DNA of 64,000 bases. Origin: Olsenella profusa DSM 13989. Its GTDB lineage: Bacteria > Actinomycetota > Coriobacteriia > Coriobacteriales > Atopobiaceae. The stretch covers positions 1,736,001 to 1,800,000 of the forward strand of contig NZ_JAUSQK010000001.1 of NCBI RefSeq assembly GCF_030811115.1. Direction: 5' to 3'. This document shows positions 47,852 through 64,000 of this stretch, piece by piece. The notes under the pieces were generated by a model, which saw nothing but the letters and a program-made list of their open reading frames with translations, had not been told where the DNA came from and did no database searches. The translations under genes were made by a program, and so were the position numbers. How positions within the stretch are numbered: the stretch's first letter is position 1; each line of letters starts with the position of its first letter.

Positions 47852-48511
47852 TCAGTGCGCCCCTGATGCCGTCAGTGCCTCGCCCGCCTCGTCGGCGACC
47901 GTGCGCAGAAGCGCGGCATCCGCATCGGTTCCGCCGCGGTGTGACCACTCGCGCATGACCTCGACCCAGTACAGTACGACCGTGGCTGCCATGAGGTGGG
48001 TCGCGAAGTCGCGTGGGGGGCGCAGGGAGTCCGGGAGCAGTGTGGCCACGACCTGCTCCCAGCGCGGGACACGCGCGTACAGTGCCCTCAGGAGCGTGGG
48101 GTTCTCGTGCACGATGGCGAGCCTGAGGGCGACGTCCGAGAGCCCCTCCCCGCCAAGCTCGCCCACGACGGCATCGAGGACGGTGTGGGCGACATCGAGC
48201 GGGCGCGCGTCCTCTCCTGCCGTGCCCAGCGTGCGTTCGGCGACCACGATGGCGGCGCTGTCGGGCGGCATCCCCAGGATGACGTCCTCCTTGGAGGGGA
48301 AGTGGCGGAAGAACGTCATGACGGAGACGCCGGCGGCCTGGGCGATGTCGCGTGCCGTCGTCTCGTCGTAGCCGCGCTCGTCGATGAGCCTGAGGCCGCA
48401 GGAGCGCAGGCGGGAGCGCGTCGAGCGCAGGCGCTCTCCCTGCCACGTCTCTCGAGCTCGTACGGCCCGCACCGAGGTGCCGCGTCTGTCAGCCTGCCCA
48501 GTCTCTCGCAT
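47852..48511 (-). CDS. TetR-family transcriptional regulator
   Basis: 219 residues. HTH region: RSRLRSCGLRLIDERGYDETTARDIAQAAGVSVMTFFRHFPSKEDVIL. The rest is a full-length helical ligand-binding domain. The start overlaps the last 23 bp of the MFS gene, so efflux pump and regulator form one operon. A repeated TTACTC motif upstream of the MFS gene is the likely binding site. Confidence 0.9.
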   Translation of the reverse strand: MRETGQADRRGTSVRAVRARETWQGERLRSTRSRLRSCGLRLIDERGYDETTARDIAQAAGVSVMTFFRHFPSKEDVILGMPPDSAAIVVAERTLGTAGEDARPLDVAHTVLDAVVGELGGEGLSDVALRLAIVHENPTLLRALYARVPRWEQVVATLLPDSLRPPRDFATHLMAATVVLYWVEVMREWSHRGGTDADAALLRTVADEAGEALTASGAH

Positions 48512-50039
48512 GGTCTTCCTGCTCCCATTTTGATGTGTATGCGACGTATGCCGCCACTAGGAGGAGCACGACGGCCGTCACGCAGAACGTCACCAGGATA
48601 GCATGGGCATATGCGCCACTCGCGGCGGTACGTATCGCCTGTGCCTGCACGTCACTCTGCGTGCCTGCGGCTTCGAAGGCAAGCGAGATGGACGCGAAGC
48701 CTTCGGCGGCACCTCCCCGGCATGTCGCGGCATAGACCGAACCCACGATCGAGCCGAGAGAGCCAATACCCACAAGGCATCCGAGCTGCTGAAAGGTGGA
48801 GATGAGGGCGGAGCCGCCACCTGCTCGCTGGTTGGGGACGCGCTCCATGCCCCATCCCTGCATGGTGGGCAGTCCCATGCCCATGCCCAGGCCGCAGGCG
48901 CACTGCCCCACGACCATGAAGGGATAGCCCATGAGGGTCGTCGACACGGCCATGACGACCAGGCCGAGGGCGATGAGGGCGAGGCTCCCCATGCATGCCC
49001 GTCGCTTGCCCAGCCCATCCGCGACCTGCTTGGTGATGGCGGATCCCGCCATGGCGGCGATGACCATGGGCATGAGCATGAGGGCGCCTACCAGCGCGCC
49101 GTTCCCGAGCGCCGTCTCGACGTAGGAGGGCAGGACGAACAGTATGCCCGATATGGCGAGGTTGAGTGCGAGCAGGGACATCGAAGCGGCCGCGAACGAG
49201 GGTGTGCGTAGCAGGCCAAGCTCGGCAAGTGGGTTGGAGGACCGCGTGTCGTGGCGGACGAACAGTGCGATTGCCACGGCACCCGCCACCATCAGGCCCC
49301 AGGAGTCCGGGGAGGCGAGGGAGACCTGCGCGTTGATGAGGCCGGCCGAGAGCAGGGAGAGGCCAACGAGTGCGAGCAGCGCCGAGAGGAGGGGCAGCCG
49401 ACCGCCGGACGCACCGTCCCCCTCATGGAGCAGCTCCCCCTCATGGGGCAGGAGGGCCGCATTGAGCAGCATGGTGACGACGAAGGCCACCAGGTCGAAC
49501 ACGAAGATGGAGCGCCAGCCGGCAAAGTGGACGAGCAGGCCCCCGAGCACCAGGCCAAAGGGCGCCCCCAGGGTCATCGCGATGGCGCGCAGCGTGAGGG
49601 CGCGCAGCTGTCCCTCAGGGTCGAACAGGTACTTGATGAGGGCCAGTCCCATGGGGACGTAGAAGCCCGCCCCAAGTCCCATGAGGCCTCGTGCAACGAT
49701 GGTGACCATGGAGTTGGGCGCGAGGACGCCGATGACCGATGCGACGACGAAGGCGCCCGTGCCCAGCAACAGCGTGCGCTTGACGCCCCACCTGTCGCCC
49801 AGGGATCCCGAGAGCAGCATGAACGCCGCAAAGATCAGGTTGTATGCCGAGACCATCCACTGTTGCTCCACCTGGCCGGCCCCCAGCGAGACGGAGATCG
49901 TGGGGAGGGCGACGTTGAAGGCCGTCGTGTTGGCGAAGCACACGAACGTTCCCAGGCAGAGGCCCCCCAAGGCCCTCCACGCCTGCCTCGTCGCACCTGC
50001 ACCCAGTGTCGTCGGGTCGTCTCCCTGTCCTGTGGCCAT
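48489..50039 (-). CDS. MFS drug-efflux transporter, DHA2/EmrB-QacA type
   Basis: 516 residues with 14 hydrophobic segments. Motif A GSLGDRWGVKRTLLLG follows helix 2 and motif C-like segments (APFGLVLGGLLVHFAGWRSIFV) mark an antiporter. It would export hydrophobic drugs with proton exchange. The ATG at 50039 is preferred (GAGGGG 9 bp upstream); an ATG at 50060 is possible. It leads the two-gene operon with the TetR gene. Confidence 0.92.
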   Translation of the reverse strand: MATGQGDDPTTLGAGATRQAWRALGGLCLGTFVCFANTTAFNVALPTISVSLGAGQVEQQWMVSAYNLIFAAFMLLSGSLGDRWGVKRTLLLGTGAFVVASVIGVLAPNSMVTIVARGLMGLGAGFYVPMGLALIKYLFDPEGQLRALTLRAIAMTLGAPFGLVLGGLLVHFAGWRSIFVFDLVAFVVTMLLNAALLPHEGELLHEGDGASGGRLPLLSALLALVGLSLLSAGLINAQVSLASPDSWGLMVAGAVAIALFVRHDTRSSNPLAELGLLRTPSFAAASMSLLALNLAISGILFVLPSYVETALGNGALVGALMLMPMVIAAMAGSAITKQVADGLGKRRACMGSLALIALGLVVMAVSTTLMGYPFMVVGQCACGLGMGMGLPTMQGWGMERVPNQRAGGGSALISTFQQLGCLVGIGSLGSIVGSVYAATCRGGAAEGFASISLAFEAAGTQSDVQAQAIRTAASGAYAHAILVTFCVTAVVLLLVAAYVAYTSKWEQEDHARDWAG

Positions 50040-50069
50040 GCGCACCGCCCCTCTTCGCATATCCGTACG

Positions 50070-50091
50070 TTACTCACTAGCATACGAGTAA
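50070..50091. promoter_or_regulatory. Candidate operator for the MFS/TetR operon
   Basis: TTACTC-N10-GAGTAA, a 22-bp inverted repeat, starts 31 bp upstream of the chosen MFS start. Another GTTACTC copy follows at 50092-50098. Spacing suits a TetR dimer, and the position fits autoregulation of this operon. Confidence 0.5.
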
Positions 50092-50166
50092 GTTACTCAA
50101 TATCATATGAATGTCAAGGGGGAGACGATGGCAGCCTGGTGCGACATCGTCGGGATGGGGCGCGTG

Positions 50167-51822
50167 TCATCCGAGGGGCGATGGTCTCCCTGCCGCCACC
50201 CAGGCGGGGTAGAAGCGCTGGAACCACTTGGTGAAGGCACCCATGAGCAGGGAGAGCGCGCTCACGGTCATGCCCGAGTAGGGATGCAGGGGGGTGGCGG
50301 ACAGGGTCGCGACCAGTACGGCGCTGAGCGCGAACACGACCGCCCACGCCAAGGTAAGGATCCGGTTGCAGTCCATGAAGAGGGGGTTTCCCAGCGCCCT
50401 GTCCCCGCCATAGCGGGCCTTGACGTAGTGGGCGGTGAACGGGACGCCCGTGGCGCACGACGCCGCCCACATGGCCCCGTACAGCACATACGACACCGGC
50501 TGCGCCCACGACCCCCCGACGCCGGTGAGCACCGCCAGCGAGAACAGGGATGCCATGGCAAGGGAGAGGGTGTCATACACCGTCGTCTCGTGCCGGACGA
50601 GCAGCAGGGGCTCTATCGCGCAGGTGACGAGCACGGCCAGGGAGCCCGCCAGGGCATTGATGGGGGTGGCGATCCAGAACGCCATCAGGGGGAGCAGGGA
50701 CGCCATCATCACGGGTGGCCTGCGCGCGGGCTTCGTCGCATCCGATGTGGGGCCAGCCTCGGTTGGCTCCTCGTTGGAGCCGAACACCTTGTTCCACTCC
50801 ATCATGAGCGAGAAGTCGCCCTCCACCGTGTAGAGTCCCTGGCCGAGCGCCTGGGTGCCCTCGAGTTCCCCGCGGGCGATCTGCTGCCACACCGCAAGCG
50901 GCGTCCTGATCACCGTGGTCGCGGTGGCGGGGCGCCCCTCGACGACCTCGGCCGCCTGGTCGGTCAGGTTGATCTGGCACACCTCTTTGATATCGGTGTA
51001 GTCCATCTCGACCACGCGCGTCGTGCCGGCGTACGTCGCCGGGTTGTACAGCAGTGCCATCTGCCTGGTGAACGCAAGGGCCTCGGACGAGGGCGCGGTC
51101 GTGCTCCCATCCCCCTTGATGCCCCAGCTCGCGTTCGCCATGGCCTCGTATGTCTCCTTGGGATAGAGGAGCCTCTCAAGCCGCCCGCGCGTACCGGCGG
51201 CGATTACGTCCGCCTCCGCGAACTCCGCACCGGCCTGGCGCACGACGGAGAGGTACGCGTCGGTCTTTTCGCGCAGCTCCCTCACGTGGAACAGCTCGCC
51301 CTGCCCGCAGAAGATCGTCTCGTAGTCGCCCCGTCCGCAGATGTGGTCGAACATGCCTGTCACGGCGTCGTAGTTGCCCTCCGCTGTGTAGAACCCGCAG
51401 GTGGACACCAACACCGTGCGCTTGCCCGTGCGGTCGACGCGCGAGGGGTGCGCCCCGTTGCCCACGCCGTCGGTGCGGTCGACCATGAAGGGCAGCGAGG
51501 TGGGAAGCTGGCGGTCTATCAGGTTCTTGAGAGGGCCGGGGACGCCAAAGTAGTACAGGGGGAAGCTCCAGACGGTGACATCGGCCCATTGCTGGTCCTC
51601 GAGCGCCTGCGCCATGTCATCGTGCATGCAGCACGCGCCGGGCGTCTTACCCCAGCAGGAGAAGCAGCCCCTGCAGGGGGAGATGTCCAGCGACCTCACG
51701 TCGAGGGTGCGCAGCTCCACGTCCGACCTCGCGTCCCTCATGCCGTCCACGAACGCCGACGCGAGCTTGAGGGAGTTGCTGGCTGACCCTTTGGGGCTGC
51801 CGTTGATGAGCAGGATGTTCAT
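50167..51822 (-). CDS. Three-domain protein: NADPH-dependent FMN reductase + SCP2-like + membrane domain
   Basis: 551 residues. Residues 1-200: flavodoxin-like fold with NGSPKGSASNSLKLA (FMN phosphate loop) and cysteine motif CRGCFSCW. Residues 220-350: SCP2-like domain (EVCQINLTDQAAEVVEGRPATATTVI, VWQQIARGELEGTQAL). Residues 375-535: five or six helices. The start at 51822 overlaps the PadR stop (TAATG), so regulator and enzyme are coupled. The architecture suggests quinone, aromatic or lipid reduction at the membrane, controlled by a PadR sensor. Fusion of all three parts is unusual. Confidence 0.8.
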   Translation of the reverse strand: MNILLINGSPKGSASNSLKLASAFVDGMRDARSDVELRTLDVRSLDISPCRGCFSCWGKTPGACCMHDDMAQALEDQQWADVTVWSFPLYYFGVPGPLKNLIDRQLPTSLPFMVDRTDGVGNGAHPSRVDRTGKRTVLVSTCGFYTAEGNYDAVTGMFDHICGRGDYETIFCGQGELFHVRELREKTDAYLSVVRQAGAEFAEADVIAAGTRGRLERLLYPKETYEAMANASWGIKGDGSTTAPSSEALAFTRQMALLYNPATYAGTTRVVEMDYTDIKEVCQINLTDQAAEVVEGRPATATTVIRTPLAVWQQIARGELEGTQALGQGLYTVEGDFSLMMEWNKVFGSNEEPTEAGPTSDATKPARRPPVMMASLLPLMAFWIATPINALAGSLAVLVTCAIEPLLLVRHETTVYDTLSLAMASLFSLAVLTGVGGSWAQPVSYVLYGAMWAASCATGVPFTAHYVKARYGGDRALGNPLFMDCNRILTLAWAVVFALSAVLVATLSATPLHPYSGMTVSALSLLMGAFTKWFQRFYPAWVAAGRPSPLG

Positions 51823-52385
51823 TACTTCCCCTCCTGTAGCGTATCGAGCTGGTCCCTGCATGCCTGGCTCCACTCGTGCAGCATCCGCGCATAGCGGATG
51901 CCGAAGTCGGCCGTCATCATCCAGAAGACGGACTTCCCGGCATTGCCCTCGTGCGAGCCGTATGCGCCAATGATTTCCGGCACATCCTCCATCGCCGTGA
52001 CGAAGCGCTCGCTGAGCGCGACGAGTACCTGCACGTAGGCTTCCTGCTCGCTGGCCTGTGCCTCTGCCATGAAGAACAGCCTCAGGAGGAAGGGGAAGCG
52101 AATCTGCACGTCGCCACGCACGTCAGCCTCCGTGGGCGAGAGCCAACGGGACAGTTCCTCCCGTCCCGCCTCGGTGAGGGAGTAGACCCGACGGTTGGGT
52201 CGTCCCTCCTGCTCCTCGATACGGCTGCTCGCGAACCCCTTGCGTTCGAGTCCTTGGAGCTCGCGATAGATCTGACTGGTGCTCGCGTTCCAGAAGAACG
52301 CGAGGGAGTCCCTGAACACCTCCATGATCTCGTATCCGGTCATGTCTCCATAGCTCAGCAGCCCGAGTACGCCATGTTTGAGCAT
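51822..52385 (-). CDS. PadR-family transcriptional regulator
   Basis: 187 residues. Winged helix: HGVLGLLSYGDMTGYEIMEVF, TSQIYRELQGLERKGFASSRIE, RPNRRVYSLTEAGREELSRWL. The C-terminal half is the helical dimerisation arm of the PadR-s1/VirR type. These repressors respond to phenolic compounds or antibiotics. The stop shares one base with the flavoprotein start. A perfect 26-bp palindrome lies 18 bp upstream of the ATG. Confidence 0.92.
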   Translation of the reverse strand: MLKHGVLGLLSYGDMTGYEIMEVFRDSLAFFWNASTSQIYRELQGLERKGFASSRIEEQEGRPNRRVYSLTEAGREELSRWLSPTEADVRGDVQIRFPFLLRLFFMAEAQASEQEAYVQVLVALSERFVTAMEDVPEIIGAYGSHEGNAGKSVFWMMTADFGIRYARMLHEWSQACRDQLDTLQEGK

Positions 52386-52403
52386 TCCGTCCCCTCTCGC
52401 TCG

Positions 52404-52429
52404 GTAATATTCTATAAGTAGAATATTAC
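52404..52429. promoter_or_regulatory. Perfect palindromic operator upstream of padR
   Basis: GTAATATTCTA-TAAG-TAGAATATTAC has perfect 11-bp arms and a 4-bp spacer. It contains -10-like TATTCTA and TAGAAT sequences and lies directly in front of the PadR gene's ribosome site, as known PadR operators do (ATGT/ACAT-type dyads are common, this one differs). Confidence 0.7.
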
Positions 52430-52586
52430 ATTTGTGGTATATGTCAAGGGGATGAGAAAAGTGAGACAGGACGTAGCGTCAGCAGCTGCGGGTGCTGGGG
52501 CACTCGTCCGTTGCACGCTGGGGCATGTTCCCGTTGCCCGCCTCATCCCTTGGCATATGCTGCTCGCAGAGGAAGGAAGGCCGACG

Positions 52587-53014
52587 TTAGGGATGCCATC
52601 CTACGGTGTGCCAGTGCGTGCACGGCATCTTCTCGTAGGGTGGGGACTCATGGCAACCAGACGCTGTGACTGGGGTGACGCGTTCGAGAGGATGCGCGCC
52701 TACATCGATGCGACCATGCATGAGCGATGCGTAGACGAGCAATGCAACGCCCGCCGCCACGCAGACGAGAAAGGCGCTTCTAACCCAGGCGACGCCATCG
52801 CCGAGGGTGGCAGAGAGCATGACGCCCACGAAGATGGCCGTGATGCCCCCGACGATGCCGCGGGAGAAGAGCTTGTTGGCAGTCTCCCTCTGGGTCGTGG
52901 TGTAGAAGTCCTCCACGTACGGATGCACCCTGACGAACGCATCGTGCCTGATGCCTGCCGGAATGACGAGGCGGAGCCCAGCGAGGGCGAAGGCGAGGAA
53001 TGCCAGGTTGCGTT
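52587..53014 (-). pseudogene. Membrane-domain remnant of a larger protein
   Basis: From about 53014 leftwards the frame reads LAFLAFALAGLRLVIPAGI, then VHPYVEDFYTTTQRETANKLFSRGIVGGITAIFVGVMLSATLG and AWVRSAFLVCVAAGVALLVYASL. This resembles the C-terminal membrane part (hydrophobic helices plus HPYVEDFYT segment) of HTH-membrane fusion regulators found in related Actinobacteria. A TAA stands directly before it and no HTH is present, so the N-terminal half is missing. Confidence 0.5.
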
Positions 53015-53177
53015 ACCGGCCCATGCTGCCTGTTCGCTGACTTGTTGATTCCTGAAGGTCAGTGGGTGGGTATGATGCAAACAGGTGTGGCGGGAACTTC
53101 AAGAGGGAGCTCTTCGTGCTGCTGACGCGCGAGGACCGTTTGCGTGTTGCAGGGAGCCAAGACCGGGGGAGGCTGCC

Positions 53178-53966
53178 ATGAGAAGCGCGACGTTGGTGGT
53201 CATGAGGCACGGCGAGTCCACGTGGACGGACAAGGCCCAGAACCGCTTTGCCGGCTGGGCGGACATCCCACTCACAGAGCGCGGCCGCGACCAGGCAAGA
53301 CATGCCGGCGAGCTCATCCGTGACGCGAGCATCAGGCCCGATGCGGCGTTCACCTCCCTGCTACGCCGTTCGATAGAGACCTGTGACATCGTGCTCGACG
53401 TGGTCGACCGTCTCTGGGTCCCCGTGATTAGGAGCTGGCGGCTGAACGAACGCCACTACGGTTCCTTCCAGGGGGAGGCGCGTCCCGCCATGCGGGAGCG
53501 CTACGGCGAGGAGCTCTTCACGACCTACCGTCGCAGCTACGACGTGCGCCCGCCCGAGATTGCCACGAGCTCGCCCTGGTGGCAGGGAGATGACCCGCGC
53601 TATGGCGTCATCGCGCAGGATGGGCTCGACAGCCTCGATCCCGCCCAGATTCGCAGCGAGTGCCTGAGGGACGTGGTCGTGCGTCTCGAGCCGTTCTGGC
53701 AGGCCTTCGTCACGCCATGCCTCTCGCTCGGCGAGACGGTCCTCGTCGTCACGCATGGCTCGGTGGTGCGCTCCCTCATCAAGGTCATCGAAGGCCTCTC
53801 CGACGAGGAGATTCGCACCGTCAACGTGCCCACCGGCGTTCCGCGCGCCTACGAGTTTACGAGCGATGCGTTTGGCGGCCTACGGGTGCAGGGGAGCGGC
53901 CGCTACCTTGACCCCGAGGCTGCGGCCGCGGGCATCGCCGAGACGAAGGAGCTGGGCAAGGTGTAG
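53178..53966 (+). CDS. gpmA: 2,3-bisphosphoglycerate-dependent phosphoglycerate mutase
   Basis: 262 residues. The phosphohistidine motif is VMRHGESTWTDKAQNRFAGW (His in RHG). Then LTERGRDQARHAGELI, TSLLRRSIETCDIVLD, RLNERHYGSFQG, and the second His in VTHGSVVRSLIKVIEGL. It interconverts 3- and 2-phosphoglycerate in glycolysis, or is a close paralogue. Length is within the dPGM range (about 250). The ATG at 53178 follows GGGGGAGG. It is followed 73 bp later by the radical SAM gene. Confidence 0.9.
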   Translation: MRSATLVVMRHGESTWTDKAQNRFAGWADIPLTERGRDQARHAGELIRDASIRPDAAFTSLLRRSIETCDIVLDVVDRLWVPVIRSWRLNERHYGSFQGEARPAMRERYGEELFTTYRRSYDVRPPEIATSSPWWQGDDPRYGVIAQDGLDSLDPAQIRSECLRDVVVRLEPFWQAFVTPCLSLGETVLVVTHGSVVRSLIKVIEGLSDEEIRTVNVPTGVPRAYEFTSDAFGGLRVQGSGRYLDPEAAAAGIAETKELGKV

Positions 53967-54039
53967 CCGAGGGACATTGCATCCCAAGCGTTGCGCACCG
54001 TCTCTCCCGTCACGGCATCGGAAACGAAAGGGATGGACC

Positions 54040-55131
54040 ATGGAGAGTTGGAAGACGCTCATCTCGCAAGGGTATAGCGACATCCGTGGCCTTCAAGGCA
54101 CCCTCGGCCTGTCGGACGGGGACGTCGCCGTCGTGCGGGAGCTACAGCGGACGTTTCCCATGTTCGTCAACCCGTACTATCTCTCCCTGATTGACCCGAA
54201 CGACCCAGATGACCCCATCAGGAGGATGAGCATCCCCGACGTGTCGGAGGCGGACCGCAGCGGTAGCCTCGACACCAGCGGCGAGCAGTCCAACACGGTC
54301 ATGGCCGGACTGCAGCACAAGTACCGCGAAACGGCGCTGATCCTCTCCACCAACCAGTGCGCGATGTACTGCCGACACTGCTTCAGAAGGCGCATGGTGG
54401 GCCTCAGCGAGGACGAGACCTCACAGCACCTCGAGGGCATGTTCGCCTATATACGGGAGCACGAGGAGATCTCGAACGTGCTGATCAGCGGCGGGGACGC
54501 GTTCATGAACAGCAACGCCACCATCCGGCGCTACCTTGACGGACTCTGCGACATCGCACACCTCGACCTCATTCGCTTTGGGACCCGGACCCCCGTCACC
54601 CTGCCCCAGAGGATCACGGAGGACGACGAGCTGCTGGGGATCCTCGAGGAATATTCCAAGAGGAAGAGGATATACGTCGTCACGCAGTTCAACCATCCGA
54701 GGGAGATCACCAAGGAGTCGACCGAGGCGATAGACCGCCTTCTCAGGTTGGGGATTCCCGTCCGCAACCAAACGGTTCTGCTGCGAGGGGTGAACGACGA
54801 CGCGCGCACGCTGGGGACGCTGCTGAGGGGGCTCACGACGATCGGGGTCATCCCGTACTACGTCTTCCAATGCCGTCCGGTGGCCGGGGTGGTCAACCGG
54901 TTCCAGGTCCCCCTGCGCGAGGGCTACCGCATCGTGGAGCAGGCGAAGCGCATGCAGAACGGCCAGGGGAAGTGCTTCCGCTTCGTGCTCTCGCACGTCA
55001 CGGGGAAGGTCGAGATCCTCGGGCCCGCCCAAGGCGAGGACATGCTCTTCAAGTACCACCAGGCGAAGGAGGAGTCCGACCAGGGAAGGATCTTCCGCCA
55101 GCCGATCGCCGAGGGCCAGCGCTGGCTCTAG
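54040..55131 (+). CDS. KamA-family radical SAM aminomutase-like protein
   Basis: 363 residues. The [4Fe-4S]/SAM motif is CAMYCRHCF (C-x3-C-x2-C). The sequence around it (STNQCAMYCRHCFRRRMVG) and LISGGDAFMNSN match the lysine 2,3-aminomutase/EpmB family. A GQGK segment near residue 305 aligns with the PLP-binding GGGGK of KamA, with the Lys kept. The protein is shorter than KamA (about 416), so the substrate may differ (peptidyl or free lysine). Start ATG at 54040. Confidence 0.85.
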   Translation: MESWKTLISQGYSDIRGLQGTLGLSDGDVAVVRELQRTFPMFVNPYYLSLIDPNDPDDPIRRMSIPDVSEADRSGSLDTSGEQSNTVMAGLQHKYRETALILSTNQCAMYCRHCFRRRMVGLSEDETSQHLEGMFAYIREHEEISNVLISGGDAFMNSNATIRRYLDGLCDIAHLDLIRFGTRTPVTLPQRITEDDELLGILEEYSKRKRIYVVTQFNHPREITKESTEAIDRLLRLGIPVRNQTVLLRGVNDDARTLGTLLRGLTTIGVIPYYVFQCRPVAGVVNRFQVPLREGYRIVEQAKRMQNGQGKCFRFVLSHVTGKVEILGPAQGEDMLFKYHQAKEESDQGRIFRQPIAEGQRWL

Positions 55132-55306
55132 GGGTACCGAGAAGAGGTGCGTGCATGACGTTCCGGCTGCCTGGGCGGTCGGCTTCTCCGGTAACAGGTA
55201 GAGCTCTCTGCGCTCCCTCTTGACGCCGCATGCCATGGCGCCTGTCCTGTGGCCTGGGTGTGCCGCGGTTGGGGACATGCGCTGATGGGGCGAGTTTCCC
55301 CCGGGA

Positions 55307-55376
55307 AATGTAAAGTACTCTTGACATATAGCCACTGGATGTCGTATCATGCAAAATGTAAATGGTATTTTACATT
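55307..55376. promoter_or_regulatory. Promoter and operator of a small membrane-protein/XRE operon
   Basis: TTGACA (55321-55326) and TATCAT (55345-55350) form a promoter with 18-bp spacing. A half-site AATGTAAA (55307-55314) lies before it, and a full palindrome AATGTAAA-N6-TTTACATT (55355-55376) lies just after it. The same 8-mer occurs three times, so this is probably the autoregulatory site of the downstream XRE protein. Confidence 0.65.
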
Positions 55377-55399
55377 CAAAGGCGGAAGGGGTGGTCTGG

Positions 55400-55729
55400 A
55401 TGAAGAAGACCGACGAGATGGACCAACGCATGTTCCTGAGGTCGGAAGAGTGGGGCTATCGGGTCCTGCTCCTTGCGCTCTCTGCCTGGACCCTCTACAA
55501 CTGCCTTCAGGCGGCTCTGAACGGGAGGGGATATGAGCCTGTCCCGGGCTGGGTCCTGTTGGGAGGGGTGTTGGCACAGGGTCTCTCGAGGCTTGCGATT
55601 CGGCAGCGGATGCTTGCGGGGGACGAGGAGTATCATGAGCCCAACCGACTCCTCCGCGTGCTTCTGGAGGCAGTGGCCGTTGTCGTGGCTCTGATTGCGG
55701 CTGGCATGTACCTCGTCTCCAGGGCATGA
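55400..55729 (+). CDS. Small membrane protein (DUF6773-like), paired with XRE regulator
   Basis: 109 residues: a charged start MKKTDEMDQRMFLRSEEWGYR, then three helices (VLLLALSAWTLYNCLQ, GWVLLGGVLAQGLSRLA, LLEAVAVVVALIAAGMYLV). Its gene overlaps the XRE gene by 4 bp. Such membrane-protein/HTH pairs are common in Firmicutes and Actinobacteria, and the membrane protein may control the regulator's activity. The function is otherwise unknown. Start at 55400 follows GGAAGGGG. Confidence 0.75.
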   Translation: MKKTDEMDQRMFLRSEEWGYRVLLLALSAWTLYNCLQAALNGRGYEPVPGWVLLGGVLAQGLSRLAIRQRMLAGDEEYHEPNRLLRVLLEAVAVVVALIAAGMYLVSRA

Positions 55730-55929
55730 CCGGCATGAGGAACAACGTCAGGGAGCGACGGAAGAGGGCGGGGTACCGTCAGGAGGACATGGCGGCGCTG
55801 CTGGGGGTCAGCCGCCAGACGGTCATAGCGATCGAGAACGACAAATATGACCCCTCCCTTGGGCTTGCGATCAGGATAGCGCGACTGTTCCAGACGCAGG
55901 TGGAGGAGGTCTTCTTCCCCGATCGGTAA
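55726..55929 (+). CDS. Small XRE-family HTH regulator
   Basis: 67 residues, almost entirely one Cro/CI-type HTH: RNNVRERRKRAGYRQEDMAALLGVSRQTVIAIENDKYDPSLGLAIRIARLFQTQVEEVFF. No other domain. The motif QEDMAALLGVSRQTVIAIE is the recognition helix. It overlaps the preceding gene (ATGA). Similar 65-75-residue regulators repress their own operons; the tripled AATGTAAA site upstream is the best target. Confidence 0.92.
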   Translation: MTGMRNNVRERRKRAGYRQEDMAALLGVSRQTVIAIENDKYDPSLGLAIRIARLFQTQVEEVFFPDR

Positions 55930-56087
55930 GTACGGCTGCAGAGAGGATGCGGACGGGCCTTCCCGCCTAACGGTCGTGGACCTTGCGGAGGTGTCCGTGG
56001 TGTGTGCCAGCGTGGCCTAGCGGAGCCAGGCGACCTCGTACAGGAGCATGAGGAGGTACCGTGCAGCTCCTTGCCCACGTTGATAGC

Positions 56088-56598
56088 GGCATAGTGTCCA
56101 GGCGAGGAAGGAGAGCCTGGCCTGTCCCGCCTCAGAGATGTTCTATTGACCACGTACCCCACCTCAGCATGCTCTGCTTACAGGCATATCGTTGAGGTGG
56201 CGATATCATTGAACAAATTCTCATGGTCGATCACGATCACCAGCCTGTCGCGAGAGAGGGTTCTGAGCAGCCCTATGAGACGGGTTCTTGATAGCTCGTC
56301 CAAGCCACTTGCAGGCTCATCAAATATGAGTATTGATGCTCCGCGTAAGACCGCCCGCGCAATTGCCACCTTCTGTCGCTCTCCACCAGAAAGCCTTGAG
56401 GCGGCCGGTCCGACTTCCGTCAGCTCTCCCTCCGGAAGCCTGCTGATGATCTCATCCAGACCCGATAGGTGAAGAGCCCTCTCATAGGCTTCCTCATCCA
56501 TCTTCTCGATCCCGAACGAGACGTTTTCACGTATGCTGGCATTCAAGAGGAAGGGATGCTGCGAGACCGCTGAACAGTACCCTTTCCATGAGTCGGTG
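56088..56598 (-). repeat. 511-bp direct repeat, left copy (truncated ABC exporter 3' end)
   Basis: Identical, as far as compared by eye, to 59316-59826. It contains 90 bp downstream of the exporter stop and the last 140 codons of the exporter. The left copy cannot be expressed as a transporter. Its right edge coincides exactly with the start of the IS element at 56599. Confidence 0.9.
56178..56598 (-). pseudogene. Truncated duplicate of the ABC exporter, C-terminal 140 residues
   Basis: Carries SAVSQHPFLLNASIRENVSFG, signature LSGGERQKVAIARAVL, Walker B ILIFDEPASGLDE and H-loop IVIDHE, all identical to the intact gene. The Walker A motif and the membrane domain are missing, so it is inactive. 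Confidence 0.9.
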
Positions 56599-56704
56599 TG
56601 TGTTTAGTCAAGCCCCAGTTTCGGGAATGTGCACGCATTTCTTTCGGGTCCGTGCACGAAACTTTTGCGGGTTTGCGCACGGACCCGCCGACCCTTGCAA
56701 CCTC

Positions 56705-56899
56705 CTAGAACGGGACCTCGCGGACGCCGGGGTCCGGCGGCGCAGGGGGCCCGGTCGGCCCCAGCTCCTCCGGGTCCGCGACGCACTCGGGGCAGTCGAA
56801 GCCCCTGCAGAGCGTCACGACGTCGTGGTGCTCCAGCACCCAGTCGTCGAGGTCCCAGATGGGGCACGAGGCGCGGCGCGCCCCGGGCTTCTCCCTCAC
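56705..56899 (-). CDS. Small cysteine-containing ORF at the 3' end of the IS21 element
   Basis: 64 codons from a GTG at 56899, two bases from the istB stop. A GGGAGG ribosome site precedes it at 8-9 bp. The product has CPIWDLDDWVLEHHDVVTLC and FDCPECVADPEEL, with four or five Cys and two His, and a Pro-rich tail. It could bind zinc. Canonical IS21 elements have only istA and istB, so this would be a passenger or accessory gene. Confidence 0.5.
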   Translation of the reverse strand: MREKPGARRASCPIWDLDDWVLEHHDVVTLCRGFDCPECVADPEELGPTGPPAPPDPGVREVPF

Positions 56900-59157
56900 G
56901 TCACTCGCCTCCCTTCCCGAGCATCAGCGAGTTCTCCAGCCTGTGGCTGGGCCCGCCGAACTCCACGAGCCTGCCGTGGCGCGCGACCCTGTCGACGATC
57001 GCCGCGGCCAGCTCGTCGCCCGCGAAGACCGTGCCCCACCTGGAGAACTCCACGTTGGTGGTGAACACGATGCTCCGGCACTCGTAGCTGTCGGATATGA
57101 CCTGGCAGGGCGGCCGCGCGCCGTCCACGTCGAAGGGCACGTGGCCGAACTCGCCCAGGATCACCAGCCGGGCCTTCGCGACGTCCGCGAGAACCCTGTC
57201 GAGCGTGCCGTCGCGCTTCGCCTTCCCGAGGGCGAGCACCAGCCGCGCGGTCTGGTAGGACCGCACGGGGGTGCCGGCGGCCACGGCGGCCGTGCCAAGG
57301 CCTATCGAGGCATGCGACTTGCCCCTGCCCGTCTTCCCGAAGAACACGAGGTCCTCCGCTGCGTCCACGAACGAGAGGCTGCGCATCTCGTCGGCGCCCC
57401 AGCCGTCTGGGAGCCTGACGTTGGGCCAGTCGAAGCCCCCGAGCGTCTCGGGGACGGGGAACCCCGCCTGCCTGAGGAGCCGCCCGCGCTTGGCGCGCTC
57501 CCTGTGCGACAGCTCGTCCTCGAGCAGCGACGTGCAGGCGGCGAGCTGGCCCGGGGTGGCCCTGCCGAGGAACGCGTCTATGGAGTCGCAAGATATGAAG
57601 AGCGCACGCGCGCACGCGCGGAGGAGGCCCTCGGCCTCCGACCTCTGCCTGCTGCCAGGCTGCATCGCCGGCGCCCCCCTCCACCAGCCCGAACGCGCGG
57701 TCGTAGGCCCCGAGGTCGACGTCCTCGCCGTACTCGCGGCGCGCCTCCCCCGAGGCGATGCGCGCCGCGGAGAGGCCGACGGTCGCGGCGTCTATGCCGC
57801 CCGTCGCGGACAGGGACTCGGCCATGGCCTCGACGGCGCTGGCGAACCCGTGGGCGCCGGCCTCGTCCCTGAGGATGCGCAGGTCGCGCCCCGGGCCCGG
57901 GGCGTCCTCGCCGTCCAGGTGTGCGACGAGCTCGCCGGGCAGGGACATCCTCACGATGCCGTCGCGCCAGCCGGCGGGCCTCATGCACAGCAGCTTGAGC
58001 TGCAGCATGGGGTCCGACGAGTCGGCTGGCGCGTCGCCCCACTCCCGCTCGTAGGTGGCGACCACCTCGCCGGTCTCCTGGTCGACCACCGTGACGTCGA
58101 AGGCGCCGAGCGCGACGTTGGCCTCCCTGCGGGCGTAGGCGGGGCCCGCGGAGTAGCGGTGGACGCCGCCCATCGTGAACACGCCCTGCCTGCTGCACCT
58201 GCGGACCTCCCACCTCGCGCACGAGAAGGCGGCGGGCGGCAGCTCGCGCAGGGCGGCCCTGTCCTCCTCGAACAGCTCGGGCTCGGGGGTGCCGAGGCGG
58301 TAGTGGGGCTTGTCGCTCATGTCCAGGCAGTCCGCGAGCAGGCGCCGGTCGAAGGCCCTGACGTCGTGGAAGCTCGGGACCGGGACGAAGGCGTCGCGCC
58401 TGTGGCAGCCGACCTCGTTCTCGACGTTGCCCTTCTCGTTGCCCGAGTAGGGGTCGGCGAGGGCGTGGTCGAGCCCGTAGTGGGCGGCGAACAGCCTGAA
58501 GAGCTCGCTGGTGCGCACCTCCCCGCACACCCTCCTGCCGACCTCCGTCGCGTTGTCGAGCACCGCGCGCGCGGGCACGCCGCCCACGAACGCGAGGACG
58601 CCCGCGAGCCCCTCGCGCACGCACTCGGCGGCCTCGCCCCAGAAGACCTGCGTGAGGCCCACGTCGGGGTGCGGGAAGCTCACCGCGAGGCAGTGGCCGC
58701 GCGTGAGCGCGCCCCTCACCCCGGAGTCCGCCTGGCCGAAGTCGACCTGGCACTCGCCGGCGAGCCAGTCCAGCTGCAGGAAGCCCTGGGCGTCCCTCTG
58801 GTCCGCCTCGCGGGCCATCTCCCCGCGGCGCCTCCTCACGTACCTCTGCACAGTCGAGTACGACCCGTCGTAGCCCTCCTCGTCCCTCAGACGCACGTAC
58901 ACGCGCACGGCCGTGTGGCGCTGCCTCCTCCAGTGCCTGGCGTCGTCGGCGAGCCACCTGTCGATGGTGCCGGCATAGGGCGCGAGCAGCTCGCTCTCGC
59001 CCCCCGTCCTTCTGGGCGGCTCCGGCGACAGGTCCTCCATGTCCCTGTGCTTGCGCACCGTGGGCTCGGACACGCCGGCGGCTCGCGCGATGTCAGCCAC
59101 CGAGACGCCTCTCCTCCACATCCTCCTGATGTCCTCGATCTTGTCCACGCCGATCAT
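56896..59157 (-). CDS. istA: IstA-like DDE transposase
   Basis: HTH at the N-terminus (IRRMWRRGVSVADIARAAGVSEPTVRKHRD). The DDE catalytic residues lie in ECQVDFGQAD, ARAVLDNATEV and GNEKGNVENEVG; the beta-barrel region follows. The recognisable IstA ends near GAYDRAFGLVEGG, at about residue 500, where istB starts. The reading frame does not stop there but runs on antiphase through all of istB to 56896, predicting a 753-residue protein with an Arg/Ala-rich tail. A lost stop or a frameshift near the CCCCCC run at 57672 could explain it. Confidence 0.85.
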   Translation of the reverse strand: MIGVDKIEDIRRMWRRGVSVADIARAAGVSEPTVRKHRDMEDLSPEPPRRTGGESELLAPYAGTIDRWLADDARHWRRQRHTAVRVYVRLRDEEGYDGSYSTVQRYVRRRRGEMAREADQRDAQGFLQLDWLAGECQVDFGQADSGVRGALTRGHCLAVSFPHPDVGLTQVFWGEAAECVREGLAGVLAFVGGVPARAVLDNATEVGRRVCGEVRTSELFRLFAAHYGLDHALADPYSGNEKGNVENEVGCHRRDAFVPVPSFHDVRAFDRRLLADCLDMSDKPHYRLGTPEPELFEEDRAALRELPPAAFSCARWEVRRCSRQGVFTMGGVHRYSAGPAYARREANVALGAFDVTVVDQETGEVVATYEREWGDAPADSSDPMLQLKLLCMRPAGWRDGIVRMSLPGELVAHLDGEDAPGPGRDLRILRDEAGAHGFASAVEAMAESLSATGGIDAATVGLSAARIASGEARREYGEDVDLGAYDRAFGLVEGGAGDAAWQQAEVGGRGPPPRVRACALHILRLHRRVPRQGHPGPARRLHVAARGRAVAQGARQARAAPQAGGVPRPRDARGLRLAQRQAPRRLGRRRDAQPLVRGRSGGPRVLREDGQGQVACLDRPWHGRRGRRHPRAVLPDRAAGARPREGEARRHARQGSRGRREGPAGDPGRVRPRALRRGRRAAALPGHIRQLRVPEHRVHHQRGVLQVGHGLRGRRAGRGDRRQGRAPRQARGVRRAQPQAGELADAREGRRVT
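56901..57665 (-). CDS. istB: IstB-like transposition ATPase
   Basis: 254 residues, a DnaA/DnaC-like AAA+ ATPase that activates and positions the IstA transposase. Walker A is FFGKTGRGKSHASIGLG. The Walker B region reads ARLVILGEFGHVPF, where the usual acidic pair (DE or DD) is GE: the codon for Asp is GGC. Sensor I is SIVFTTNVEFSRWG and arginine-finger region DRVARHGRLVEF. The Gly substitution may weaken ATP hydrolysis. The start ATG lies inside the istA frame region. Confidence 0.85.
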   Translation of the reverse strand: MQPGSRQRSEAEGLLRACARALFISCDSIDAFLGRATPGQLAACTSLLEDELSHRERAKRGRLLRQAGFPVPETLGGFDWPNVRLPDGWGADEMRSLSFVDAAEDLVFFGKTGRGKSHASIGLGTAAVAAGTPVRSYQTARLVLALGKAKRDGTLDRVLADVAKARLVILGEFGHVPFDVDGARPPCQVISDSYECRSIVFTTNVEFSRWGTVFAGDELAAAIVDRVARHGRLVEFGGPSHRLENSLMLGKGGE

Positions 59158-59315
59158 CCTCTCTTGGCCTCCTCGTGTCGAAAACGGACGCATCGACAAA
59201 GGTAGGCCACATCAACGGGTGGTCGGCGTGCCCATGCACACATGCGAAAGATTTTCGTGCTCAGACCCGAAAGACTTCGGTGCTCAAACCCGCAACTGAG
59301 AGGCTATCAAACACA

Positions 59316-59826
59316 GGCATAGTGTCCAGGCGAGGAAGGAGAGCCTGGCCTGTCCCGCCTCAGAGATGTTCTATTGACCACGTACCCCACCTCAGCATGC
59401 TCTGCTTACAGGCATATCGTTGAGGTGGCGATATCATTGAACAAATTCTCATGGTCGATCACGATCACCAGCCTGTCGCGAGAGAGGGTTCTGAGCAGCC
59501 CTATGAGACGGGTTCTTGATAGCTCGTCCAAGCCACTTGCAGGCTCATCAAATATGAGTATTGATGCTCCGCGTAAGACCGCCCGCGCAATTGCCACCTT
59601 CTGTCGCTCTCCACCAGAAAGCCTTGAGGCGGCCGGTCCGACTTCCGTCAGCTCTCCCTCCGGAAGCCTGCTGATGATCTCATCCAGACCCGATAGGTGA
59701 AGAGCCCTCTCATAGGCTTCCTCATCCATCTTCTCGATCCCGAACGAGACGTTTTCACGTATGCTGGCATTCAAGAGGAAGGGATGCTGCGAGACCGCTG
59801 AACAGTACCCTTTCCATGAGTCGGTG
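59316..59826 (-). repeat. 511-bp direct repeat, right copy (inside the intact exporter)
   Basis: Its left edge is the exact right end of the IS element, and its right edge is the point in the exporter gene after which the sequence continues uninterrupted (TCGGTG-GCTATT). Content as in the left copy. Confidence 0.9.
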
Positions 59827-61061
59827 GCTATTGACTTGAGGGGAATGCCATCAACAAGGATCGAGCCCGACCAATTCTGAATCGATCCCAGGAGTATCTT
59901 GGCGAGGGTGGTCTTTCCACTTCCATTGGCGCCCTTGATCAGGACAAGCGACGGTCGTACTAGGTTGGCATTGAGTCCCCCAAATAAGATCCTATCCCCA
60001 CCGCCCCACCTAAAGCTCAGATCCCTTATCTCAATCTCCGTGGGTTCTGTCCTCATCATGATGGGGGCGCCATAGGCAGGGGAATCCGCTGGGAATACCC
60101 CGGCTATACGGTCGAGTGCGGCAAGGGCAGGCTGAAGTGATATAGACACTGACACTGCGACAAGAAAGGGGCTGTAGAGGTATGAGGCATACTGCACGGA
60201 TGCAACGATCTGCCCCAGAGACAACCTAGAGTCACCCATGAGCACGCCGCAAACGATATATACCAGGGCGGCAGACGCCGTTGTCAAGACTTTCATGCTC
60301 TCGCCTGTCACGGAGGCAAGAACAGCCTGCCTGATTGACTTGTCCCTGAATAGCCTGTTCGCTCGGTCAACCCTCTTCGTCCCATAGGCGGAGGAGGCAT
60401 TTATCTTCGCTTCCTCCCTGCTCGCAACCGCCTCCGTCGTCCTGCCCGCAAGTCGTGCGCCTGCCTCGAACGCTTCGGCCATGGCAACTCTGTATTTCCG
60501 TACAGAATGAACCGCATAGGCTGCATACACGGGAATCGGCAGCATGGCGAAAAGCAAGATGCGCACATCGGTCGACGCCATGAGTGACACAGCGACCATC
60601 GCCTGAAGGATACTGCTCAAAAAGGTAAAACTCGTCTGTGAGAAAAGCGAGGAGACGTTGTTTGCCTCATTAATCCTCGATGCGATATAGCCGTCATCCT
60701 TGTCCGAAAGCCAATCGGTAGGCATCGATAGCGCTCGAGAGACCAAAGCGCCGCGAAAATCCGAGACGATGCTTTGCCCGACCCTTGCAAGTAGCTTCGC
60801 CGCACTGACCGAGAGCAGGGATTGGGCACCTGCAATGACAACCAGCGAAACCGCGAGTAGTATTATGATGTTCAGTCTTCCAGTACCGAACCCATCATCG
60901 ATGAGTAGCTGCATAACCAATGATGGAAGCACGGTCAAGGCCGAATAGCAGAGGAGGAGCGCGCCTGCGCCGGTCAGTTTGCCCTTGTTGCCCCGAACGT
61001 ATGGAGTCAAGAGGCGCAGGGAGCTGCCTCTGTTACTGACCAAATGCCTGAGAAAATGCAT
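59406..61061 (-). CDS. ABC exporter half-transporter (peptide-export type)
   Basis: 551 residues. Six-helix membrane domain (about 30-300), then ATPase with GANGSGKTT (Walker A), LSGGERQKVAIARAVL, ILIFDEPASGLDE and IVIDHE. The N-terminus lacks a C39 peptidase domain. It overlaps the upstream radical SAM remnant by 29 bp, so it was the exporter in a peptide-modification operon. It is intact despite the neighbouring duplication and IS. Confidence 0.9.
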   Translation of the reverse strand: MHFLRHLVSNRGSSLRLLTPYVRGNKGKLTGAGALLLCYSALTVLPSLVMQLLIDDGFGTGRLNIIILLAVSLVVIAGAQSLLSVSAAKLLARVGQSIVSDFRGALVSRALSMPTDWLSDKDDGYIASRINEANNVSSLFSQTSFTFLSSILQAMVAVSLMASTDVRILLFAMLPIPVYAAYAVHSVRKYRVAMAEAFEAGARLAGRTTEAVASREEAKINASSAYGTKRVDRANRLFRDKSIRQAVLASVTGESMKVLTTASAALVYIVCGVLMGDSRLSLGQIVASVQYASYLYSPFLVAVSVSISLQPALAALDRIAGVFPADSPAYGAPIMMRTEPTEIEIRDLSFRWGGGDRILFGGLNANLVRPSLVLIKGANGSGKTTLAKILLGSIQNWSGSILVDGIPLKSIATDSWKGYCSAVSQHPFLLNASIRENVSFGIEKMDEEAYERALHLSGLDEIISRLPEGELTEVGPAASRLSGGERQKVAIARAVLRGASILIFDEPASGLDELSRTRLIGLLRTLSRDRLVIVIDHENLFNDIATSTICL

Positions 61062-61335
61062 GCGGATTCCTCTTCATAATGGTGGCATAGACAGATAACC
61101 TCTTCTCGATCGTTCTGCGAATGGCCGCACAAAACGAATCGCCGAGATGGTAGTAAGGGTCATCCTCAGTTGTTGCGAAGCACTTTGGGCAGAGGCGAGA
61201 CACATTGCACTTCGAGCAGTGTGACAATACGTGCACGGTATACTGGTCTACTGCCTCTTGGGCCGCCCTAAGTCCTGGTAGTCGCTAAAGTTCCTCACGA
61301 TGTTAATCATACGAAAGAGTCAGGTAGTTTTTCAT
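61033..61335 (-). pseudogene. Collapsed radical SAM/SPASM peptide-maturase gene
   Basis: ATG at 61335, with AGGGAG 8 bp before it, reads MKNYLTLSYD and then a stop. One frame over follow NFSDYQDL and, after another shift near 61262, a SPASM-like Cys-rich C-terminus: HCSKCNVSRLCPKCFATTEDD, SFCAAIRRTIEKRL, MKRNPHAFSQAFGQ. Only about 10 N-terminal and 90 C-terminal residues of an enzyme normally over 400 remain; the CxxxCxxC core is deleted. The spacing C-x2-C-x5-C-x2-C resembles maturases of Cys-rich RiPPs. Confidence 0.65.
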
Positions 61336-61448
61336 CGCTGAGACTCCCTTTTCTGCTCAGAGAGTCTTTTATATTCATTAAAGCGAGCAATCGCACTCTG
61401 TGCCCCGTCCAATGCGCCCTTATATTCCTTCGTCTCTGCCAGGCAGAG

Positions 61449-62549
61449 TCACGTTCTAGATGACATCGCTTCTGCATGGGCGTGCAAGATGCGAAGCGCT
61501 TCCTCAACATATCGGAGTGTGTTTCCTCCCTCGACAAGGTCTTCCAGGGTTTCGTTCCTCCTTGCCTTGGCGAAGGCATGTAAGGGGGCAGTATCGCTCG
61601 GGTCACTCTCCACTGCATCCAGGTCATTCACTGCGACAGCGTAGGCGGCGAAAGCGCGCGTCGCACCGTCCAGGTCCTTCCGCGACAGACTTATGCATGC
61701 AACCGAGAAGAAAATCCCTAGTACGATAAGAGGGTCGATGACGCTTCTCCCGAAGTGATCATAGAGCTGTGTGACGAGCAGTGCGCAATCGGATATCGCT
61801 GCATCGTCTTCGCTCGGGACGAGCCGGAGCATGAAAGGCACGCTTGCGAGGATAAGCTCCACGCCATCCGCAAGCATAAGCTGGAATAGGTGGCGTGCCG
61901 ATTCGAAATCGCCGCTTATGTAGTAGGCCTCGGCGAGCAGAGGGGTGGAAGACGAGTCCGTTTCTGCGTTCGGGCCCAATAGAGCGACGATTTCGTCAAG
62001 ACCTTCCTCGCCATCTCCAAGCGACAGGAGCAAGAACACCACATGCAACTTTCTCGCCTTTCTTACAAGGGCCTCAATCGGACAATCTCGCTCAACTCGT
62101 TCGCAATACTCTACGCCCCTGCCTGTGAACCTCATCGCGTCCTTATGTTTGATCACTCCTGCTGCCCCATTGTTCACTGCAAGCAACAAAGCAGCAGCGG
62201 TGAGCAGCAGAGACCAGCTCGAGTAGTGGAGCCTGACGATGACGTCCAGGTGTTCGTATGCCTCTGCTGAATCAGCCTTGAATTCCTCAAGGAGTTTGTC
62301 GCGTATCTCCTGGACTGTTTTCTCTGGCAGCACTGCTTCGTAGCCCAGCAATTCCTCGATGCTGATGGAGAAAAGCGCGGACAGCTTTGGCAGCAACGTG
62401 ATATCGGGAAGACTGATGCCGAGTTCCCACTTGGAAACGGCGGCCTTCGACACCCCGACAAAGTTCGCGACATCCCCTTGGGTCATGCTGCGTCTTTTTC
62501 TCTCCCGAGCAATAACCGCCCCGATGTTGATGGAATCGAAAGCAGACAT
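61449..62549 (-). CDS. XRE-family regulator with helical C-terminal domain
   Basis: 366 residues. HTH: IGAVIARERKRRSMTQGDVANFVGVSKAAVSKWELGISLPDITLLPKLSALFSISIEELLGYE. The remaining 300 residues are helical, with TPR-like alternation (PLLAEAYYISGDFESARHLFQLML). This Rgg/PlcR-like architecture often senses peptides and regulates RiPP or export operons. It lies directly upstream of the collapsed maturase and the ABC exporter, in the same direction, with a 113-bp gap. Start ATG at 62549. Confidence 0.9.
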   Translation of the reverse strand: MSAFDSINIGAVIARERKRRSMTQGDVANFVGVSKAAVSKWELGISLPDITLLPKLSALFSISIEELLGYEAVLPEKTVQEIRDKLLEEFKADSAEAYEHLDVIVRLHYSSWSLLLTAAALLLAVNNGAAGVIKHKDAMRFTGRGVEYCERVERDCPIEALVRKARKLHVVFLLLSLGDGEEGLDEIVALLGPNAETDSSSTPLLAEAYYISGDFESARHLFQLMLADGVELILASVPFMLRLVPSEDDAAISDCALLVTQLYDHFGRSVIDPLIVLGIFFSVACISLSRKDLDGATRAFAAYAVAVNDLDAVESDPSDTAPLHAFAKARRNETLEDLVEGGNTLRYVEEALRILHAHAEAMSSRT

Positions 62550-62947
62550 ATGCTCCCTCCGGTTTCTATCAGGTGTGGCGAGCGGAGCCTTCGCTGTGAT
62601 TCGACCGTGGGTCCACTCAGAAGGGCTGTGAACTCATTAAGAAATTATGAATCGCCAAGGAGTCAAAGACGATGGAAGCTGTGTCGAATGTCATCCAGAA
62701 AAATCAACCGCGGGGAAGGGATGAAGCTCGGCCTCATCTATGCCACATCGTCAGTGCTCAAGGATCTCACTGTCAACCATTGCGATGAGGCACACGATGC
62801 CTGTGCGCCGCACTTGCCCACGGATATGAAGACGAGCGAACAAGGCCAGTAACTCACATGTAGAGCCCAAAGGGCGGTTGGAGCAATCCTCGGTTTCACC
62901 TGAGGTGTGATAGCTGGTTTACTAGGTGGACCAGCTCGCATGACCAC
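62550..62947. other. Intergenic region with possible short remnant
   Basis: 398 bases. A short + strand frame beginning at ATG 62721, after GGGGAAGGG, reads MKLGLIYATSSVLKDLT, vaguely like the start of aspartate/glutamate racemase-family proteins, then ends at 62852. Too short to call. No terminator seen. Confidence 0.3.
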
Positions 62948-63598
62948 CTAAATGGCCCTGGGCTTGCGCATCACGGCATGAAGATGCCAGAGCCTGTCGT
63001 TTCGGAAGACTTCAAGGGTGAGCCTGGACTCCTGGCACATCCGCTCGATTTCCTTTCTGGAATAGATGCGCACGTCGCCCTTGTGGAGGAGGTTTGCCAG
63101 CGGCAGCTCAACGTTATTGATGAACCAGACCATAAGGGCGTTGCCGGTGCTGTCGTTGAGCACAAGCTTGCCTCCGGGCCTCAGAATGTGAGACGCGCTG
63201 TCAAAAAAGTCCTGGGGATTGGGGTAGTGGTGGAAGCTCATGGAGCAGATTGCGACGTCAAACGATGAGTCCTCGAAGGGGATGTCCTCGCAGTCGCCTA
63301 CCACGAACCTGACGTTGGCGAGCGCCTTTGCCCGGGCGACCTCGATCATCTTGGGCGTGAGGCCGAGGCCGGTGTAGCGGCGATCCGGCCATCTCTTGTG
63401 CAGGAGCGAGATCATGGGACCCGTCCCGCACCCGCAGTCGAGAAGGTCCTCGAAGGGTTCCCGCTCAAGCTCTTTCAGGATGCTGGGGTACTCGGCACGG
63501 CACGGCTCGTAGATGCCGGCATCGTCCGTCTCGTCCGTCTCGGCCGCCTTCGTGAACTCCTCTATGGAGAGGCGCTTGTACTGCTCTGCCGTCCTCAT
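62948..63598 (-). CDS. SAM-dependent methyltransferase (class I)
   Basis: 216 residues. Motif I is LLDCGCGTGPMISLLHKRW; then TGLGLTPKMIEVARAKA, VGDCEDIPFEDSSFDVAICSMSFHHYPNPQDFF and ASHILRPGGKLVLND. This is the UbiE/COQ5-like small-molecule methyltransferase pattern. The C-terminal region has IYSRKEIERMCQESRLTLEVF. The ATG at 63598 begins MRTAEQYKRLSIEEFTK. The acceptor is unknown; it has no close partner gene. Confidence 0.88.
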   Translation of the reverse strand: MRTAEQYKRLSIEEFTKAAETDETDDAGIYEPCRAEYPSILKELEREPFEDLLDCGCGTGPMISLLHKRWPDRRYTGLGLTPKMIEVARAKALANVRFVVGDCEDIPFEDSSFDVAICSMSFHHYPNPQDFFDSASHILRPGGKLVLNDSTGNALMVWFINNVELPLANLLHKGDVRIYSRKEIERMCQESRLTLEVFRNDRLWHLHAVMRKPRAI

Positions 63599-63804
63599 GC
63601 GACACACTCCCATCAAAGTAAGCCTAAACTTGTCTTTATAGGGAAACTATAGACTGATATGCGTGACCTTCTGGAGCCACGTGCCATCCCACTGGCAATG
63701 TACGGCAGAGACACAGAGCCAACAGGTCTTTTGTGCGGGCAAACGAAGCGTCGATTGACCGTTGCGGACTTCTGGGGCATGTTTGTCCCTGAAAGGAGGC
63801 GCAC

Positions 63805-64000
63805 ATGGATGCACACCGGTTTGGCAACTTCATGGCGCGACGGCGCAAGCAGCAGGGGACGACCCAGGCCTTACTTGCAGACAGGATTTGCGTGACCGAC
63901 AAGGCGGTCAGCCGCTGAGAGCAGGGCGTGGGTTTTCCTGATATCGGGACCATCGAACCGCTGGCGGATGCCTTGGACGTGTCCGTCATCGAGCTGATGA
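63805..64000 (+). pseudogene. XRE-family regulator with in-frame TGA, partial (window edge)
   Basis: ATG at 63805 follows GAAAGGAGG. The HTH reads FGNFMARRRKQQGTTQALLADRICVTDKAVSR, then TGA at 63916-63918, then EQGVGFPDIGTIEPLADALDVSVIELM to the edge. Family members have a Trp exactly here (SRWE), so TGG has become TGA. The reading frame is otherwise perfect. The 3' part lies outside the window. Confidence 0.8.

Follow-up and report, generated by a model that had tools for sequence, protein, structure and literature searches.

The genome of Olsenella profusa DSM 13989 contains an insertion sequence (IS) of the IS21 family that lies exactly between two identical direct copies of a 511-bp chromosomal segment. 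We explain this arrangement as an unflanked IS duplication in a natural genome. The window analyzed here is the 64,000-nucleotide stretch C1:1736001-1800000 of the single-contig genome (C1; 2,616,809 bases). In unflanked amplifications, an IS separates the copies but the outer borders lack one, as defined by Yelin and Kishony (2026, PMC13423834). The duplicated segment is designated D, and the sequences to its left and right are designated x and y, so that the locus reads x-D-IS-D-y. The architecture itself has already been described. What is new relative to the published cases found is the natural genome, the IS21-family transposase, and the length of only 511 bp.

The initial annotation placed the IS flush between two exact 511-bp copies, and this was confirmed. 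Direct comparison of the copies at 56088-56598 and 59316-59826, which had been suggested as a check, gave 0 mismatches, and the identity extends 0 bases beyond either side. The IS occupies 56599-59315 exactly. Chance does not account for an exact 511-bp repeat that abuts both IS tips. A search of the genome located D at these two places only. The window contains one copy of this IS. A canonical IS-flanked duplication would have IS copies at the outer borders as well, but neither the window scan nor the junctions in the related strain described below revealed any there. The claim that no short target repeat accompanies the IS also held, the flanks being AGTCGGTG and GGCATAGT. No bases are shared between the IS tips and the ends of D, x, or y. 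A simple insertion with a short target repeat was ruled out, as neither single-insertion string reproduces the window. D as a mobile element in its own right was likewise ruled out, because it consists of the 3′ end of a gene and a further 90 bp. Just outside D, TTGATAGC on the left and GCTAT on the right look like the inner part of the IS right end, a resemblance absent from the printed flanks of three other sites in this genome that have a target repeat. The orientation and offset of these motifs are unfit for a pseudo-end, and we take the resemblance as probably due to chance.

The ancestral arrangement is illustrated by O. profusa F0195, the one other genome of the species available (genome G040 in the genus search, labeled as the same species). 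The ABC exporter whose gene ends within D has a counterpart in F0195 (NZ_AWEZ01000043.1, locus L030, contig positions 166302-167954) that is 98% identical over all 551 residues. The F0195 contig matches the window at 48190-56598 and at 59316-64000, and on the contig these matches share exactly 511 bp (7908-8418). The arrangement in F0195 is x-D-y, with D present once and with scarless junctions to x and y. Both the x|D and the D|y junctions are identical in the two strains over 60 printed bases each. The x-D-IS-D-y form is therefore derived from x-D-y, and its outer junctions are ancestral. Because both D copies share all 13 differences from F0195, the duplication is later than the strain split, unless gene conversion afterward equalized the copies. 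An older, separate duplication of D is ruled out by the same comparison, with 0 differences between the copies versus 13 from F0195. The search of related strains proposed in the initial annotation thus recovered the uninterrupted single-D locus, but no strain with the IS at only one D border was seen in this one other genome of the species.

D comprises the last 421 bp of the ABC exporter gene and 90 bp past its stop codon. The right copy of D is continuous with the intact 551-residue gene (59406-61061). Therefore, the exporter gene is preserved whole, and the earlier statement that one intact copy is retained is correct. For the left fragment, an in-frame TAA, whose position was read from the sequence, lies in the IS bases directly upstream.

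The assignment to the IS21 family made in the initial annotation is borne out by the ends and by both genes. The tips read TGTGTTT...AAACACA, and the inverted terminal repeats form 95-nt arms that are 71% complementary. IstA clears the NCBIfam cut-off for IS21 transposases (NF033546, 209.7 versus 160 bits), and istB adjoins istA. IstB scores above the Pfam IstB_IS21 cut-off (PF01695, 150.7 versus 24.1 bits) but below the stricter NCBIfam IstB cut-off (183.4 versus 200 bits). The istA frame remains open through istB (56896-59199, minus strand, 767 aa). This open frame is common to five young copies, and a related element in locus L004 closes just past the istB start.

The short target repeat left by this element is absent at 56599-59315 but present at the other full-length copy in the genome (2077315-2080031, 4 differences), which is bordered by the 5-bp repeat CCTGG. 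Damaged copies at 1662765, 997979, and 1143702-1147653 carry 2 to 3 differences each, and this IS has been active recently. Two older relatives in the genome have 6-bp target repeats, GGCTCG and CCCGGG. The picture is complicated by the copy with outer tips at 996292 and 1002364, which is also without a target repeat. At two further IS sites one tip is missing, and the target repeat is unassessable there.

We propose that the duplication arose by transposition between two sister chromosome copies, a reading for which we judge the chances to be about even. An IS21 element (simple, replicative, or as a reactive tandem pair) would have occupied the x|D border of just one sister. Its other end would have been joined, 511 bp away, to the D|y border of the second sister. 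Of the two products, x-D-IS-D-y would be the form present, and x-IS-y would carry a deletion of D and would have been lost. Each short target repeat generated by such reactions would coincide with the first or last bases of D. None would then be expected beside the IS, and this holds alike for sister transposition and for the two-insertion route considered below. We infer both the involvement of the sisters and the final joining as a single transposition step. We lean toward sister transposition because it needs fewer independent events than two insertions 511 bp apart. Two further reasons are that the transposase of IS21 works on tandem elements and also exists in a cointegrase form (PMC10122671), and that the genome contains a broken head-to-tail pair of this IS at 1143702-1147653 (loci L026 and L041), where bases 44-2668 are joined to 1389-2717. 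Given this pair, tandem forms of the IS may have existed in the genome. A model of transposition between sister chromatids has, moreover, been published for the unflanked architecture (PMC13423834).

Several considerations weigh against sister transposition. The formation routes were written out as strings and compared with the window sequence. Transposition from a sister with the IS at x|D into an empty sister at D|y gives the same product, an agreement that follows by construction and is no independent test. This product equals that of two insertions and a crossover, and the sequence gives no preference. Recombination between IS copies is evident in the genome from a shared hybrid junction and a rearranged site. 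The pair at 1143702-1147653 may represent two separate insertions, its halves differing at two bases. Furthermore, the unflanked cases reported for E. coli are IS1-type, not IS21, in the available text of PMC13423834.

A single event could also be envisaged, although we regard it as doubtful. Behind the replication fork, the two ends of a single IS21 element would attack the two sister duplexes at points 511 bp from each other, rather than a single duplex at points 5 bp from each other. If this were the case, the 511 bp would constitute a sister-spanning target repeat, and transposases beyond that of IS1 would, as a rare but normal outcome, produce short unflanked duplications. Such insertions could later be lost scarlessly by recombination between the long repeats.

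The best-surviving alternative to sister transposition is the model of the initial annotation, in which two sister chromosomes each received the same IS, at sites 511 bp apart, and then underwent a homologous crossover within the IS. Its main prediction was borne out by the uninterrupted single-D locus of F0195. When each insertion is given a 5-bp repeat, the strings reproduce the window exactly, with x-IS-y as the reciprocal product. The model stands to this extent, but a single sister transposition predicts the same product with fewer insertions. Two insertions within 511 bp on two sisters before their parting are required, together with the crossover, and the single-site form was not seen in the one other genome of the species. 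In its favor, recombination among repeats or IS copies has clearly occurred in this genome. At C1:1662765 and C1:1000648 (loci L024 and L025), a young IS21 element without its first 21 bp directly adjoins the right tip of an older IS21-type element, and that tip is complete. That one hybrid junction occurs at two sites far apart suggests recombination or conversion between copies. Around 1138150-1149331, two stretches that are neighbors in F0195 lie apart and inverted, between two IS3-family copies. Because recombination among repeats is so plain here, the two-insertion route retains perhaps a quarter of our belief.

Capture of the IS at a chromosome break is improbable. The IS would have inserted, without its own staggered cut, at the open junction of a 511-bp duplication forming by broken-chromosome repair. 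Such capture was proposed for an IS481-family case in Pseudomonas fluorescens SBW25, likewise without a target repeat, according to the accessible text of Ngan et al. (2024, PMC11708052). However, neither a repeat nor shared bases occur at the junctions examined here, the IS is complete at both tips, and capture is superfluous for explaining the missing short repeat. Least probable of all, and only slightly credible, is an assembly artefact, in which a culture made up of cells carrying the IS at x|D and cells carrying it at D|y was merged into one path. Such a mixture would contain the same four junctions. Against this, several 2.7-kb IS copies that are nearly identical, as well as paired 1.66-kb repeats, are resolved in the single contig, which suggests reads or clones long enough to span the 3.7-kb D-IS-D.

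Table 1. Features of the D-IS-D locus (window positions) and IS3-family copies elsewhere in the genome (C1 positions).
Feature	Position	Strand	Basis
x, left flank, continuous with D in F0195	48190-56087		F0195 comparison
Left copy of D, 511 bp	56088-56598		identical to 59316-59826
Exporter 3′ fragment, 421 bp, within left D	56178-56598	-	residues 408-551, 1 TAA
IS21-family element, 2,717 bp	56599-59315	genes on -	tips, arms, profile matches
istB, helper ATPase, 254 aa	56901-57665	-	PF01695, 150.7 bits
istA, transposase, part up to istB (open frame continues to 56896)	57650-59199	-	NF033546, 209.7 bits
Right copy of D, 511 bp	59316-59826		identical to 56088-56598
Intact ABC exporter gene, 551 aa; last 421 bp within right D	59406-61061	-	continuous with right D
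y, right flank, continuous with D in F0195	59827-64000		F0195 comparison
IS3-family copies	C1:996321-997978, 1000678-1002335, 1656971-1658629, 1661077-1662735		NF033516, 352.1 versus 160 bits

We surveyed 48 istA-like stretches in 37 loci for exact repeats of at least 25 bp, 1.5-5.5 kb apart. These correspond to 49 of 62 distinct listed rows, two of which are halves of one stretch; the selection among rows was our own, and 13 rows were left out. The 62 rows comprise 58 from 118 genomes and 4 further rows from 393 genomes. Several loci end near a contig end, and the counts do not represent a rate. Only two such repeats span an istA-like stretch. One is the 511-bp D; the other, of 130 bp at 1658500/1662606, comes from the cut edge of a pair of IS3-family copies. 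A long chromosomal repeat abutting the IS was absent from all of the other stretches (47/47). A long flush repeat is thus rare in what was looked at, no more. With a filter that required typical tips as well as a repeat, 5 of 30 loci showed target repeats of 5-6 bp. Repeats of at least 40 bp occurred in 11 of 114 sequences (883,095 bases, overlaps included), among them loci L015, L042, L088, and L112. In L015, from another genome, an exact 124-bp direct repeat at positions 1 and 2154 is cut by the locus start.

Other mobile elements were observed in this genome. An IS3-family element of ~1,658 bp is located exactly 29 bp inside an IS21-type tip at four places (loci L025, L024, and L040; Table 1). 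The placement looks as if the element targets IS21 terminal repeats, and the four placements may lack independence. Within the window, two IS1634-family transposase pieces (103.8 and 26.2 bits against the NF033559 cut-off of 100) carry at their ends an exact 65-bp direct repeat (20514-20578 and 22241-22305). The 278-aa open reading frame between these repeats has no NCBIfam match.

The formation of unflanked IS duplications is stated to be unresolved in the accessible text of PMC13423834. As far as the available text of PMC13423834 and PMC11708052 goes, both studies rest on laboratory evolution; the architecture is now found in a sequenced natural strain and with another transposase family. 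At 511 bp, the duplication should be easy to rebuild as an assay, and a compact natural example makes the question of its formation testable. The locus also cautions that, where an IS lacks a short target repeat, a long one may be hidden. Recombination between such long repeats could precisely reverse the insertion. A literature search, with most subscription journals outside its reach, found no IS21 case of the copy-IS-copy type.

The closest published parallels come from the 10,347 laboratory-evolved isolates of PMC13423834. In the available text, 27 of 106 amplifications in E. coli and 2 of 7 in A. baumannii are unflanked. The E. coli cases are described as exclusively IS1-type (25 IS1-associated in the legend), with a median of 26 kb and often many copies. 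The mechanism put forward by the authors, for which they call for validation, consists of two replicative transpositions in succession between sister chromatids. As in those cases, the copies in O. profusa are split by one IS, the outer borders are IS-free, and the ancestral outer junctions are intact. In contrast to the laboratory-evolved E. coli and A. baumannii, the present case involves a natural genome, an IS21-family element, 511 bp, and two copies. The Dup-IS-Dup arrangement of SBW25 (PMC11708052) likewise has a new IS exactly between two direct copies without a target repeat. However, its element belongs to the IS481 family, and its duplication spans 59,943 bp and ends in a REP cluster, as opposed to an IS21-family element and 511 bp in O. 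profusa. The available account describes it as seen in the laboratory, unstable, and not readily explained. IS duplications formed by unequal exchange, such as that of IS1 at arn (PMC11253626), have the IS at both outer borders as well, whereas neither border has one here.

Restriction-modification units and maize Ac are more distant parallels. Restriction-modification units with a long target duplication (PMC3874152, PMC3031569) similarly place inserted DNA between long direct repeats that are single in a relative. From the accessible text, these insertions need no IS, and their repeats are on the order of 100 bp. Reversed-ends transposition of maize Ac into the sister chromatid (PMC3744419, available text) shares with the proposed route a transposase-made tandem direct duplication, an element at the junction, and a reciprocal deletion. 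Unlike the present case, the Ac system is eukaryotic and uses the ends of two elements, and its breakpoint target repeats can be recovered from the twin product.

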